From Candidatus Omnitrophota bacterium (GTDB lineage Bacteria > Hinthialibacterota > Hinthialibacteria > Hinthialibacterales > JAKPRU01): DNA of 37,673 nt. Numbering within the stretch: position 1 is the first letter of the stretch; each line of letters opens with the position of its first letter. Both the position numbers and the translations under genes were made by a program. Under the pieces are notes generated by a model, which saw nothing but the letters and a program-made list of their open reading frames with translations, searched no databases and was not told where the DNA came from. Location: NCBI GenBank assembly GCA_029570205.1, contig JAKQSI010000090.1, positions 1 through 37,673 on the forward strand. Reading direction: 5' to 3'. Shown here piece after piece: positions 3,315-32,133 of this stretch.

Positions 3315-5264
3315 TTATGTCCGCCGGAAGGCTTTGCGCAAGGTTTCCAGGGAAAGGCATACAATACTGGGCCGTCCATGCGGGCAGAAGTCGCGTCTTG
3401 GGATGGAGCGCAGGTTATTCGCGATGGCCTCCATACTGTCCCGGTCCAACGGATCGCCAAATTTCACGGCAGCCCGGCAGGCCAGAGTGTGCAGCGCCCG
3501 TTCGACTTTCTCCTCAATGTTCCCTTCCCCCTGGAGTGCGGTAACCATATCTCTCACGAGCTCCGATGCGGCCTCCATGTTGAGGTCCCCCGGTATGGCG
3601 CGAACGGCATACGTGGACAGGCCGAACGGTTCCAAGTCGAATCCCAGGCGATGAAAGATATCCTGGGACTCCAAAAGAACCGGCATCTCAGCCGGAGAGA
3701 GGTCGATGGTGGCCGGGAACAGGAGGATCTGCGAGGCCAGCGGACCGCGCGCGGAGTGCGCAAGAAACCGCTCAAAAAGAATACGCTCATGGGCGGCATG
3801 TTGGTCGATGATAAACAGTGCGCCGTTGCTTTCCGCGAGGATGTAGCTGTTTGCCAGCTGGCCGAGGACACGCAGCTCCGGGGCCTCATCTACGGAAGAG
3901 ACGCGGAGGAGATCAGGGGGGATGGCTGGTATGGGGAAAATGAAATCAACCCCCTCTGTATCTTCCCCAATCTTTGGAGGAGAGGGTTTTGAGGCTGTAT
4001 CCGCGCCTTCGGCAACCCCAGAGGTGGGGACAATGTATTCAACCCCCTCTGTATCTCCCCCAATCTTTGGGGGAGAGGGGCGGAGGTCTGTGTCTCTCCC
4101 AATCTTTGGGAGAGAGGTCTTTGAAGCGGTCTTTGTTGGGGAATGCGCTGGGCCGGGATCGGGGCGGTAGAGTTCTTTTGCGGTTTCGATGGCGTTTCGG
4201 GGAACGGGGCTTCGCGATAGTTGTGGCGATAGGTAATGATCTCGGGCTGCCGGTTTGGGAGGATGCTTCTCCTCGGGGCGTTGTTCCCATGCTTGACGAA
4301 CCGCACCGTATACAGCCGTGAAAACCTCGTTTTCGCGGGCGAATTTGACCTCCTGCTTGGTCGGGTGAACGTTAATGTCGATGGTTCGCGGGTCCAGATC
4401 GAGGTACAAAAACACAAGGGGATATCGGCCGGTGGGCAGGATATTGCGATAGCCATCCATCAAAGCGCGCTGGATGGTTCGATTTCGGATATAGCGGTCA
4501 TTCACAAAAGTGAAGATGTGCTGTGCGCTATTGCGTGTGACAGTGGGACGGGACATAAACCCCGATACCGAGAGTGCGGGAGTGTCCAGGGCAACGGGGA
4601 GCAGGTCTCCCATAATTCCACGACCATAGATGCTCATAATTCGTTCGGCGCGACTGGCGACAGCGGGCAGTTCCATTACAGAGCGCCCGTTATGCACAAG
4701 GGTGAAATGGACTTTCTCATGGGCTAGCGCCAGCCATGTGACGGCGGAGCAGACATGCTCCATTTCTGTTGTGGGGCGTTTGAGGAACTTTTTTCGCGCG
4801 GGCAGGTTATAGAAGAGATCGGAAACCAGGACGGTTGTCCCGGGCGGCCCGGCGGCAGGACCGGTTTCTGTGGTTGTGCCGCCATCGATCTGTACCTGCA
4901 CAGCCTGTGGGTCCTCCTCCCGGCGTGTGATTAACCTGAATCGTGATACAGCGGCAATGGAGGCGAGCGCCTCCCCGCGAAATCCTTTTGTGGTGATATT
5001 TTCCAGATCCTCGGAGCAAAGGATTTTGCTGGTAGCGTGACGCTGCGTGCAAAGGAGTGCATCCTCTGGTGACATGCCGCAGCCGTTGTCGGTGACGCGG
5101 AGACTATTCAAGCCGCCATTTTCGACCTCCACCGAAATCCGGGTTGCACCCGCGTCGATGGCATTGTCCAGGAGTTCCCGGATCACGGAAGCCGGACGTT
5201 CCACCACCTCGCCCGCGGCAATCTGATTGGCGACCTCAGGCGGCAAGACACGGATGGTCGGCAT
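3315..5264 (-). CDS. mutL: DNA mismatch repair protein MutL
   Basis: MutL (649 residues) is the ATPase that links MutS mismatch recognition to strand incision. The N-terminal GHKL ATPase shows NQIAAGEVVERPASV, the catalytic-base Glu30 and Asn34, DNGCGM and GFRGEALASI. The C-terminal domain has DQHAAHERILFE from about residue 487, matching the DQHA(X)2E(X)4E endonuclease motif, plus ACRAAVKFGD and CPHGRP near the end. It is therefore a nicking-type MutL, as in bacteria without MutH. The linker between the domains (about residues 382-440) contains three peptide repeats of the form PKIGxDT encoded by palindromic DNA elements (listed separately). A small membrane-protein gene lies upstream and the broken GT87-like gene follows 22 bp downstream on the same strand. 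Confidence 0.97.
   Translation of the reverse strand: MPTIRVLPPEVANQIAAGEVVERPASVIRELLDNAIDAGATRISVEVENGGLNSLRVTDNGCGMSPEDALLCTQRHATSKILCSEDLENITTKGFRGEALASIAAVSRFRLITRREEDPQAVQVQIDGGTTTETGPAAGPPGTTVLVSDLFYNLPARKKFLKRPTTEMEHVCSAVTWLALAHEKVHFTLVHNGRSVMELPAVASRAERIMSIYGRGIMGDLLPVALDTPALSVSGFMSRPTVTRNSAQHIFTFVNDRYIRNRTIQRALMDGYRNILPTGRYPLVFLYLDLDPRTIDINVHPTKQEVKFARENEVFTAVYGAVRQAWEQRPEEKHPPKPAARDHYLSPQLSRSPVPRNAIETAKELYRPDPGPAHSPTKTASKTSLPKIGRDTDLRPSPPKIGGDTEGVEYIVPTSGVAEGADTASKPSPPKIGEDTEGVDFIFPIPAIPPDLLRVSSVDEAPELRVLGQLANSYILAESNGALFIIDQHAAHERILFERFLAHSARGPLASQILLFPATIDLSPAEMPVLLESQDIFHRLGFDLEPFGLSTYAVRAIPGDLNMEAASELVRDMVTALQGEGNIEEKVERALHTLACRAAVKFGDPLDRDSMEAIANNLRSIPRRDFCPHGRPSIVCLSLETLRKAFRRT
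3946..4119. repeat. Three in-frame palindromic elements inside mutL
   Basis: Three related copies lie at about 3946-3984, 4039-4080 and 4089-4119. Each centres on an inverted repeat of the type CTCCCCCA...TGGGGGAG around the bases ATCTT. The first two share the longer flank CAACCCCCTCTGTATCT; the third is a shortened version. On the mutL strand they encode SPPKIGEDTEGVD, SPPKIGGDTEGVE and SLPKIGRDTD within the interdomain linker. A fourth copy lies outside any gene at 16765-16809, which shows that the unit is a dispersed DNA element and not a MutL-specific peptide repeat. Confidence 0.9.
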
Positions 5265-6351: not shown

Positions 6352-6392
6352 GAGGGGATTTCCGTGATAGGATTACCGTCAGGATGTGAGTG

Positions 6393-6435
6393 TTTTTTTC
6401 CCTCACCACAACCCTCTCCCGGAGGGAGAGAGAAA
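6393..6435. repeat. Short GC-rich palindrome with T-run, intergenic
   Basis: CTCTCCC (6414-6420) and GGGAGAG (6424-6430) form a 7-bp hairpin with a 3-base loop, preceded by a run of seven T and a CCCTCACCACAAC stretch. Palindromes of this style are common dispersed intergenic repeats. It could also help end transcription of the DUF554 gene, but the T-run is on the wrong side for a standard plus-strand terminator. Confidence 0.5.
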
Positions 6436-6520
6436 AGAAGGCGCTCTCCTGTGAAAATGTGCATTCAGACCGGATATACAATACCACTGGGATAAGGGAG
6501 GCATTGAAATAAATGGAGGA

Positions 6521-14817: not shown

Positions 14818-16641
14818 TTATTCTTTTTCAAGCAAGGAACGTGCTAATCGCAGGAAATCTGCGCCTCGCTGGACGTAAGTGTAGTGTTTTAAGACTCTTT
14901 CCTGGCCCTTTCGTGCGACCTTTGTTCTCTCGGAATCGTGCCGGAGATAGTAATCGACCTTTTCGGAGAGTTCTTCAGGGGTACGAAATGTCTCCAAATC
15001 TATTCCGATGGAAAATTCTTCCTCCAAACAGGGCCGGTATTCAGTCAGCAGAAATCCACCGCAGGCCAGGATGTCATAGACACGGATCGTAGGCGAGTCC
15101 AGGCATTGCACATGAAACAGGTTCAGGTTTATCAAGGAGTTACGATAAATCCATGGTGTCTCTATCCAATAATCGGGCGCCCACCCGGCGTACACTTCGG
15201 GGATCGTTCCGGGAATCCTCAAATCGGCCCATCCCGGATCACCGAAGATCATCAAGCCAAAGGGCTTAACAATCTGAAGATAGTCCAGGCGAAGATACAT
15301 TGATGCGTATTCCTCAATCAGTCCCAGCAACTGACATGAGGGCAAATCGGCGCATCCTATGGGCAGAGAGAGCAGTTCGTTGTGCAGACGGATCGGGTCC
15401 GTTCCACGCCATTCCCTGATTCGATTCTCGATGATGTTTCGGATCGGGTCAGTGGAGCGCTGTATGGCCCCGGCAAAACCCTGAAGCCGTCTCATGCCGC
15501 TGGATCCAACAAAAGAAACCGCCGGAGCTTTCCGGCAGCGCGCTGGGCGAGGCACATCCGGCGCTTCCCGAAAACTTGTCGCGGTTCGCAGATGTTCCAC
15601 TCTCTTCCCTGTCATGGATCGGAGACAGGATATATGGTGCGGATCGAAGACAATGAACAGGTCGAAGTGTTCGAAATCCGGCGACAGGAGGTCGAAACGC
15701 TGCGGATTGTCGTAAAACCATGCAATCCGCCGGACTCCCGCCAAGCCCATTTCATGCAGCTCCACCGGCTCGAACCCGCTCCGGTTGAAACTCGCCACAA
15801 TATCGGGACATTCTCCGCAGGTTTCCATCCACGAGATTTCGTTTGCGACAAACCGGGACATACTCGGGGATCGTTCCACGAACTTTACGGAGACCTCGTT
15901 CTGTTCCAGTCCCGCCTGGAATCCCCGGAGCTGGTCCTCAAACACCCTTCCACACAAAACGACAGATTCTCTTTGCTTTCTTCTTGGACTTCCTGATACC
16001 ACCTGCTTTTTCCAATTCGCCAGACGTTCCGGGGCCTCGGCCGCGATATTCTCCAACGCAGAAAGAAGATTCTTGAGACCCCGCATTCCCTCTTCATCCG
16101 CTTTTGTCCCCCAGGCAACACGAAGACCGCCGGTTAAGAGAGACGGATGCGCCTCCAAAAGGGAAATGACTTGACTATCGGCGTTTTCCCCCAAACAAAG
16201 AAAGACCGATGCGCTGGGGATCAAGACCGACCAATCCAGGCTGGTGAGAGATTCCCAGACTATCTCCCACCGGTCTTCATGGACCAGAATCTTCAGGTTG
16301 GGCCATTCCTGTGTGGCTTTTTGCAGCAGGATCATGGGCAGATATCCCAGACCGGACCGATAAACCAACACGAGGTTGCCATCCTCAACAGCCAGAGATT
16401 CGACCACGGAGCGGGCTTCGCCAACAGGATCGCTGGGGTTGTGCAGCATTCCTTGAGCGGTTCGGCAGGTCGGATCCCCTTTTAATGATGGATGAATCTG
16501 AAAAAGGGTGTCTTGTCGCGCAGCTCGTGCTTTACGTCGCACCGCCAGAAGATCTGCGGCGGTTTTCCCATAATACTGCCCCAGGAGGACCATGTTCCTT
16601 TCGGCAATTCGGGTAGCGAGATTGGCTTGCTCCTCCGGCAT
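14818..16641 (-). CDS. CgeB-like glycosyltransferase
   Basis: This protein of about 607 residues ends in a CgeB/Glyco_trans_1_2-type domain: IRVYDILACGGFLLTEYRPCLEEEF, FRTPEELSEKVDYYLRHDSER, then ARKGQERVLKHYTYVQR, which is the standard donor-binding end of these GT-B enzymes. The middle has the DUF3880-like stretch IAWFYDNPQRFDLLSPDFEHFDLFIVFDPH. The N-terminal 230 residues resemble DUF115/Maf-neighbour proteins (LVLVYRSGLGYLPMILL). The start at 16641 is preferred because GGAG lies six bases upstream; the frame remains open to 16725 with no such signal. Its place just upstream of fliD and the presence of a Maf-like protein suggest flagellin glycosylation, which is inference. Confidence 0.82.
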   Translation of the reverse strand: MPEEQANLATRIAERNMVLLGQYYGKTAADLLAVRRKARAARQDTLFQIHPSLKGDPTCRTAQGMLHNPSDPVGEARSVVESLAVEDGNLVLVYRSGLGYLPMILLQKATQEWPNLKILVHEDRWEIVWESLTSLDWSVLIPSASVFLCLGENADSQVISLLEAHPSLLTGGLRVAWGTKADEEGMRGLKNLLSALENIAAEAPERLANWKKQVVSGSPRRKQRESVVLCGRVFEDQLRGFQAGLEQNEVSVKFVERSPSMSRFVANEISWMETCGECPDIVASFNRSGFEPVELHEMGLAGVRRIAWFYDNPQRFDLLSPDFEHFDLFIVFDPHHISCLRSMTGKRVEHLRTATSFREAPDVPRPARCRKAPAVSFVGSSGMRRLQGFAGAIQRSTDPIRNIIENRIREWRGTDPIRLHNELLSLPIGCADLPSCQLLGLIEEYASMYLRLDYLQIVKPFGLMIFGDPGWADLRIPGTIPEVYAGWAPDYWIETPWIYRNSLINLNLFHVQCLDSPTIRVYDILACGGFLLTEYRPCLEEEFSIGIDLETFRTPEELSEKVDYYLRHDSERTKVARKGQERVLKHYTYVQRGADFLRLARSLLEKE

Positions 16642-16764
16642 CGTGATCTCCGTTCGGGGGGGAGTCGGCGGCTGGGACATATCGTAAACCACGAAGGCGG
16701 TCATTCCAACTGATGTAGCCTTCATTCCCGCAAGGTTGGGGACGAGTTGATAAGTCCTGTAATA

Positions 16765-16809
16765 TCAACCTCCTCTGTATCTCCCCCAGTCCTTGGGGGA
16801 GAAGACCTC
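16765..16809. repeat. Intergenic copy of the mutL palindromic element
   Basis: This copy has the flank CAACCTCCTCTGTATCT followed by the inverted repeat CTCCCCCA...TTGGGGGAG. It matches the first two mutL copies with only a few substitutions. It sits about 120 bp upstream of the CgeB-like gene and outside any coding region, so it represents the free form of the element. Confidence 0.85.
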
Positions 16810-17872: not shown

Positions 17873-18307
17873 ATGCCTAAGCTAAATAATCTCTTCGACT
17901 CAGGAGTGATCAAAACCACGGGTGACCCGACCCTGGTTTTTGGCATTCTTGGAGGAATTGCGGTTTTCATTGTTGTTCTGGTTTTTGTCAGCTATCGCTA
18001 CAAGCGCTGGAAAAAGCATCAGCGCTTTGTCGCAGAGTTGAACCAATTGGCGCTGGAAGACAAAGAAGGCAACACGCTGATCGATCTGGTCAAACGGTAC
18101 GCCATGGATGAACCGGTAGAGGTTCTGTATTCCCTCCGTGTTTTCGACCAGCTTGCCGAGAAGGAAATGTGTCGCGTTCTTGGTCTGCAAGGTTCCCAAG
18201 AGGCCAAGCAGCAATATATCGACCTTCTTTATTCGATTCGGCAAAAGACTTATTTCCCTGACCTGAATGAGAGTCTTCGGGAGCCGGTTCAGGTCAACGG
18301 AAATTAA
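17873..18307 (+). CDS. Single-pass membrane protein, function unknown
   Basis: This 144-residue protein has one strong membrane segment (about residues 20-42, LVFGILGGIAVFIVVLVFVSYRY) followed by a basic stop-transfer stretch KRWKKHQR and a helical cytoplasmic domain of 100 residues. The pattern LIDLVKRYAMDEPVEVLYSLRVFDQLAEKEM resembles the region next to the membrane in flagellar PilZ-type proteins of other phyla, but no PilZ domain is present. A strong AGGAGG lies seven bases before the ATG. Its neighbours are unrelated metabolic genes. I consider it a real gene of unknown role; a flagellar link is only a resemblance. Confidence 0.75.
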   Translation: MPKLNNLFDSGVIKTTGDPTLVFGILGGIAVFIVVLVFVSYRYKRWKKHQRFVAELNQLALEDKEGNTLIDLVKRYAMDEPVEVLYSLRVFDQLAEKEMCRVLGLQGSQEAKQQYIDLLYSIRQKTYFPDLNESLREPVQVNGN

Positions 18308-31832: not shown

Positions 31833-32133
31833 CGTCATTGCGAGCGAAGCGTGGCAATCTCGCCGCCGTAATATGCAAGCCTGAGATCGCCACATCCCGG
31901 CCCTTCGCAGACTCCGGGCTGCTCCTCCTAAGAAAGCTCGGTCATCGACAGGCAGAGACGCCTGTCCCACCAGTAGGTCAGGCGTCTCTGCCTGACAGCT
32001 GCCCAGTAGGCCAGGCGTCTCTGCCTGGCAAAGAAGGGCGGCAACTATGCTTTCTTTGCCCAATCACCGGCCCCGCCGGAGCGAGGCTCGCGATGACGGG
32101 ACGCTCTGCAAAGGCAATTCGGTTGCGCGACAC
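31833..32133. repeat. Dispersed repeat, copy interrupted by a hairpin cluster
   Basis: The left part (from CGTCATTGCGAGCG through AAGCCTGAGATCGCCAC and CCCTTCGCAGACTCCGGGC, ending near 31927) and the right part (CTCGCGATGACG to GCGACAC from about 32086) match the uninterrupted copy at 27874-27968. About 155 bp of unrelated sequence lies between them. The repeat sits in the 407-bp gap between the fusion gene and comF. Confidence 0.85.
31930..32056. repeat. Hairpin cluster with 8-bp terminal inverted repeats
   Basis: The insert is bounded by AAGAAAGC (31930-31937) and its exact reverse complement GCTTTCTT (32049-32056). Inside are three hairpins: GACAGGC/GCCTGTC (31947-31966), GTCAGGC/GCCTGAC (31977-31996) and GCCAGGC/GCCTGGC (32010-32029). 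Each has a 6-base loop, GTCTCT, or AGAGAC in the first copy, which is therefore reversed. They are the same family as the left-edge array. Confidence 0.85.

Follow-up and report, generated by a model that had tools for sequence, protein, structure and literature searches.

A short DNA palindrome recurs throughout the genome of an uncultured bacterium of the Candidatus Omnitrophota and is present in three copies within its mutL gene. The feature is very probably a palindromic mobile element of the REP/REPIN type, non-autonomous and present in many copies, and in mutL it has probably been multiplied in tandem.

The 46-nt unit and its distribution

Within the window, the 37,673-nt stretch of DNA analysed here, four hairpins occur, three in mutL and one outside any gene (Table 1). 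All match TCTCCCCCAATCTTTGGGGGAGA with at most two mismatches, and their chance expectation in 100 dinucleotide shuffles is 0.00, in agreement with the initial annotation, which had described one and the same DNA palindrome three times in the MutL linker and once between genes. The element is composed of a 10-bp stem with a 3-nt loop (TCTCCCCCAA-AGA-TTGGGGGAGA) followed by an unpaired tail, YACAGAGGGGGTTGA, and an alignment of copies from the genome under study (G000) and two congeners (G001 and G002) delimits a conserved span of 46 nt comprising nAAnCC, the stem-loop and the tail. A weakly conserved 5' block (TGTCTCAAAAnCCGCGAATATGCG) suggests that the element may be longer, at about 93–100 nt.

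Table 1. Element copies and the mutL gene in the window
Feature	Position	Strand	Hairpin	Peptide or description	CM R1 (bits)
mutL CDS	3318..5264	(-)		649 aa; Pfam HATPase_c_3, DNA_mis_repair, MutL_C	
Copy 3, 46-nt unit	3944..3989	(-)	3961-3983	KPSPPKIGEDTEGVDF	67.6
Copy 2, 46-nt unit	4037..4082	(-)	4054-4076	RPSPPKIGGDTEGVEY	70.8
Copy 1, altered tail	4084..4121	(-)	4093-4115	KTSLPKIGRDTDL; 39 nt from copy 2	44.1
A single 93-nt (31-codon) tandem unit	3961..4053	(-)		hairpin + tail + spacer; 93-nt spacing in G000, G002 and G001	
Non-genic copy	16763..16808	(-)	16780-16802	between divergent genes 14818-16725 (-) and 17873-18307 (+)	58.6

Genome-wide, a search for the sequence pattern that allows up to three mismatches yields 40 strand matches, spread over about 30 places, and the reversed control pattern gives none. 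In a covariance-model search that scores no more than 150 candidates, matches number at least 142 in G000 (4.39 Mb), 126 in G002 and 144 in G001; the numbers vary by genus from 0 to 135 in six genomes of the same order and fall to zero in five same-class genomes from other families, all counts being from fragmented assemblies with 4–8% contamination. By their tails the matches divide into subfamilies a (ACAGAGGGGGTTGA), a2, b (TCAGGTGGGGGTTGA) and c (ATACAAGGGGGGTTGA). Head-to-head and tail-to-tail dimers with ends TCAACCCC/GGGGGTTGA are common: an upstream TCAACCCC partner accompanies 36 of 130 matches (versus 4 in the control) and a downstream one 24 of 130 (versus 0), ten of these 24 at exactly 12 nt. 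Terminal inverted repeats, TCAACCCC...GGGGGTTGA, are present in the dimer forms only.

Occupied and empty sites among relatives

When genes of G000 are aligned with their orthologues in the two congeners and in genomes of the same order, some sites prove to differ in occupancy. In the BpsA-like gene the number of hairpins is two in G000 and one in G002, and G001 and the order relatives have none; the secretin gene has an insert in G000 and G002 that is absent in G001; and at an uninterrupted PGVDL..YP..PP site found in one glycosyltransferase of the order relatives, one to three hairpins are present within the genus. The presence of intergenic copies also varies between congeners. That of the window is absent from the orthologous interval of both, each interval being some 130 nt shorter with flanking sequence that has also diverged. 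Since the flanks of the compared sites have diverged, a target-site duplication is not readable there. Such differences in occupancy show that the element is mobile or has been gained and lost repeatedly. In the helicase-nuclease gene a different palindrome (SLTPTLSRRERE) occupies in G001 the site where G000 and G002 have SPKIGGDTEGVE or a variant.

A second palindrome family (CCCTCACCCCAACCCTCTCCCGGAGGGAGAGGG), found in the window at about 6391-6446 and in G001 at loci L287 and L310, yields SLTPTLSRRERE or SLSPRERVGVRE, and in G001 it lies in frame in both the helicase-nuclease and hypF genes, at sites held in G000 by the first family.

Elements that form hairpins and are mostly intergenic could alternatively be functional RNA structures, either terminators or mRNA stabilisers, kept by selection rather than mobile DNA, the more so as REPs can act on transcripts (PMC3733652). 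This is quite unlikely, given that presence differs among congeners and that other copies lie inside long genes; a terminator role in particular does not fit the window's intergenic copy, because its neighbouring genes are divergently transcribed and leave no place for a terminator.

Copies within genes and the mutL array

Of the DNA around 130 matches, 677 kb was examined by scoring open frames for codon usage and then checking them by homology. In-frame copies within genes make up 19 of the 130 matches, in 17 genes. With coding sequence accounting for about 83% of the sampled DNA, this means that genes are strongly avoided overall. The analysis upholds the view of a dispersed DNA palindrome that lies in frame, in mutL and about 16 other genes. 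Hosts supported by Pfam include mutL, the UvrD-helicase/PDDEXK gene (the helicase-nuclease), hypF, glycosyltransferases, amine oxidase, secretin, BpsA-like and MptE-like genes. Inserts are situated between domains in the helicase-nuclease (residues 354–369), between the zinc finger and the YrdC domain in hypF (264–279), on a domain boundary in one glycosyltransferase (218–233), and in the N-terminal region of the secretin. Only subfamilies a and a2 contribute in-gene copies (17 of 58 matches for a against 2 of 72 for all others; p 2e-5). Open phases exist likewise in subfamilies b and c, which have no in-gene copies.

The in-gene copies are read in at least four phases and in both orientations, with the phase ending in the built-in TGA unused. 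The gene L250 uses a further antisense phase, so the set of phases is not limited to three. This diversity of phase and orientation identifies the repeated unit as DNA rather than an ancient repeat of the protein. Under the opposite reading PKIGxDT would be a selected peptide motif of MutL, its likeness at the DNA level due to recent tandem duplication only, and the array is indeed tandem, with a 31-residue period kept in three congeners. Such a reading is scarcely credible, for the same DNA is found intergenically and in about 16 unrelated genes, where other phases or antisense reading give unrelated peptides (e.g., SPPGLGETQRGLN and STPSVSPPILGE), while order-level MutLs are without PKIGxDT and the inserts are under relaxed constraint. 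Pooled over genes common to G000 and G002, pN/pS is 0.88 for inserts (223 codons) versus 0.34 for nearby flanks (1954 codons; Fisher p 0.002). Inserted codons thus evolve nearly neutrally and their peptides look tolerated rather than selected, and since the flanks in the same genes remain constrained, the host proteins are probably still functional.

MutL itself is complete and intact by Pfam (MutL_C, 3.8e-39). All three copies reside in its inter-domain linker, approximately residues 331–460, for which AlphaFold2 predicts almost no secondary structure at pLDDT < 50, a predicted disorder that accords with the earlier suggestion of a flexible linker tolerant of insertions. Each copy adds the PKIGxDT pattern, as had been noted, in the form of PKIGRDT, PKIGGDT and PKIGEDT (residues 382–394, 395–410 and 426–441). 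Relatives of the same genus keep both the DNA and the peptide, and no MutL combining the same linker peptides with divergent DNA was found among the relatives compared; in same-order genomes neither the element nor a PKIGxDT-type peptide was found in the MutL linkers, which are not alignable with those of the genus. In one genome of the order (G004, L033 1171-1300), a pair of related hairpins (CCTCCCCCAAACTTTGGGGGAGG) is found immediately downstream of mutL.

The history of the array departs in one respect from the initial annotation, which had the element inserted three times. Successive mutL hairpins are spaced by 39 and 93 nt in G000, by 93 nt in G002, and by 93 and 93 nt in G001, with homologous spacers. 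Since a 93-nt unit is repeated in tandem and copy number varies among the congeners, by whole units, one insertion followed by tandem amplification fits best, and the simplest history would be that the element entered mutL once, before the genus diversified, with tandem duplication and loss of the 31-codon unit thereafter. Three independent insertions into mutL are unlikely in view of the equal 93-nt spacing, the homologous spacers in all three congeners and the shifts by whole units. What such a scheme would accommodate is copy 1, with its different tail and 39-nt spacing, some copies perhaps stemming from a preformed dimer; closely spaced double hairpins similar to copies 1 and 2 are also found in two other genes (L212 and L257), so copy 1 may derive from such a dimer. 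For the array as a whole we retain the single insertion with tandem amplification, the insertion being something we infer rather than observe because no empty mutL site was found within the genus (three congeners).

Mobilisation and comparison with known elements

In the mechanism proposed here, new copies arise in intergenic DNA, and in genes where length and phase preserve the frame, as the congener comparison shows. Copies within genes persist at positions that can accommodate the additional peptide, several of them lying in domain linkers (mutL, hypF and a glycosyltransferase), and they then drift almost neutrally, as the pN/pS values show. In mutL, the ancestral insertion in the genus would have been followed by in-frame tandem duplication of the 93-nt unit, with copy number still variable; the difference in copy number is directly observed, the single insertion and the duplication being reconstructed from it. 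Movement would depend on a transposase that acts in trans on the hairpins, the role suggested for RAYT with REPs. No element was found within flanks of about 1.2–1.5 kb beside the three Y1 genes of G000 or beside 22 Y1 matches in relatives, and no Y1 match at all was found in G001, although pattern matches are most numerous in this congener; RAYT was rejected as the mobiliser, no element being near Y1 genes. The transposase may have been lost, may have been missed in the draft assemblies, or may be of another type. The Y1 transposase genes of G000 adjoin other repeats or none. At L060 (1939-2204), an array of 48-nt repeats with AAGGCGGGAGCTGACGCTCCCGCCTT and a perfect 26-nt palindrome immediately adjoins a Y1 (RAYT-like) transposase gene.

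With MITEs the element shares its non-autonomous character, in-frame fusions to host genes and short terminal inverted repeats, in its case in the dimer form (PMC10969869); no related transposase was found for the element, and a target-site duplication was not readable in the diverged flanks. Parallels are also offered by REPs, which have a short stem-loop with a conserved unpaired end, form head-to-head and tail-to-tail dimers, are mostly intergenic, and in some cases lie inside genes, often those of DNA repair such as uvrA, recB and DNA ligase (PMC3733652, PMC3116915). The element has in common with the GTAG/CGTC REPs and REPINs the stem-loop and conserved unpaired end, both dimer types and the mostly intergenic location, but it differs in its tag, TCAACCCC/GGGGGTTGA, with ends nAAnCC and YACAGAGGGGGTTGA and without GTAG or CGTC, and whereas REPs associate with a RAYT (Y1) gene, no RAYT adjoins the element in flanks of about 1.2–1.5 kb. 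The window also contains 13 GTAG-tagged palindromes at positions 1-419 (GTAGGCCAGGCGTCTCTGCCTGGC, period 30–32 nt) and three more at 31947-32034, a set that looks like a canonical GTAG REP family. The translation of this palindrome, VGQASLP, is also present in the open frame of L250.

Resemblance in behaviour links the element to the palindromic elements described from Rickettsia by Ogata et al. (2000), the RPEs, which likewise fall into several related families (PMC3767692, PMC10969869), and the likeness that the initial annotation drew to them holds, with many copies and in-frame occurrence in 17 genes. Both are dispersed palindromes of many copies (at least 142 matches for the element), both lie in frame inside many genes, including housekeeping and repair genes (17 for the element), and both show different families at one gene site in relatives (PMC3767692), as seen here in the helicase-nuclease. 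The RPEs are longer, at 100–150 bp against 46 nt or about 90 nt as a dimer, and the element's lineage, with genomes of 4.4–6.9 Mb, is unrelated to Rickettsia: identity does not exceed 39% in any of the 80 named MutL matches, no title among them names Alphaproteobacteria or Rickettsia, and the host, with its 4.39-Mb genome, is not one of the Rickettsiales. In the portions of the RPE gene lists covered (PMC3767692, PMC10969869), recB-family exonuclease, uvrC and DNA helicase are included and mutL was not found, and a literature search found no relevant report of mutL with palindromic insertions.

In-frame palindromic elements have been described as unusually frequent in Rickettsia, and a 2024 review calls their occurrence in other prokaryotes "conceivable" (PMC10969869). 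Here they are met in an uncultured lineage with large genomes. About 17 genes carry them, and with two congeners also sequenced, gain, loss, phase, constraint and tandem growth are directly traceable. Peptides like PKIGGDTEGVE represent mobile DNA in translation and should not be annotated as domains. Tentatively, the element might be viewed as a family of REP-like repeats that carries a new tag, TCAACCCC, falls outside the GTAG/CGTC superfamilies, lacks a Y1 transposase and repeatedly seeds protein linkers, its mutL seed having become an expandable 31-codon array whose length could vary between strains. The behaviour matches that of known RPEs and intragenic REPs (PMC3733652, PMC3767692, PMC10969869); the differences lie in the sequence tag and the lineage.
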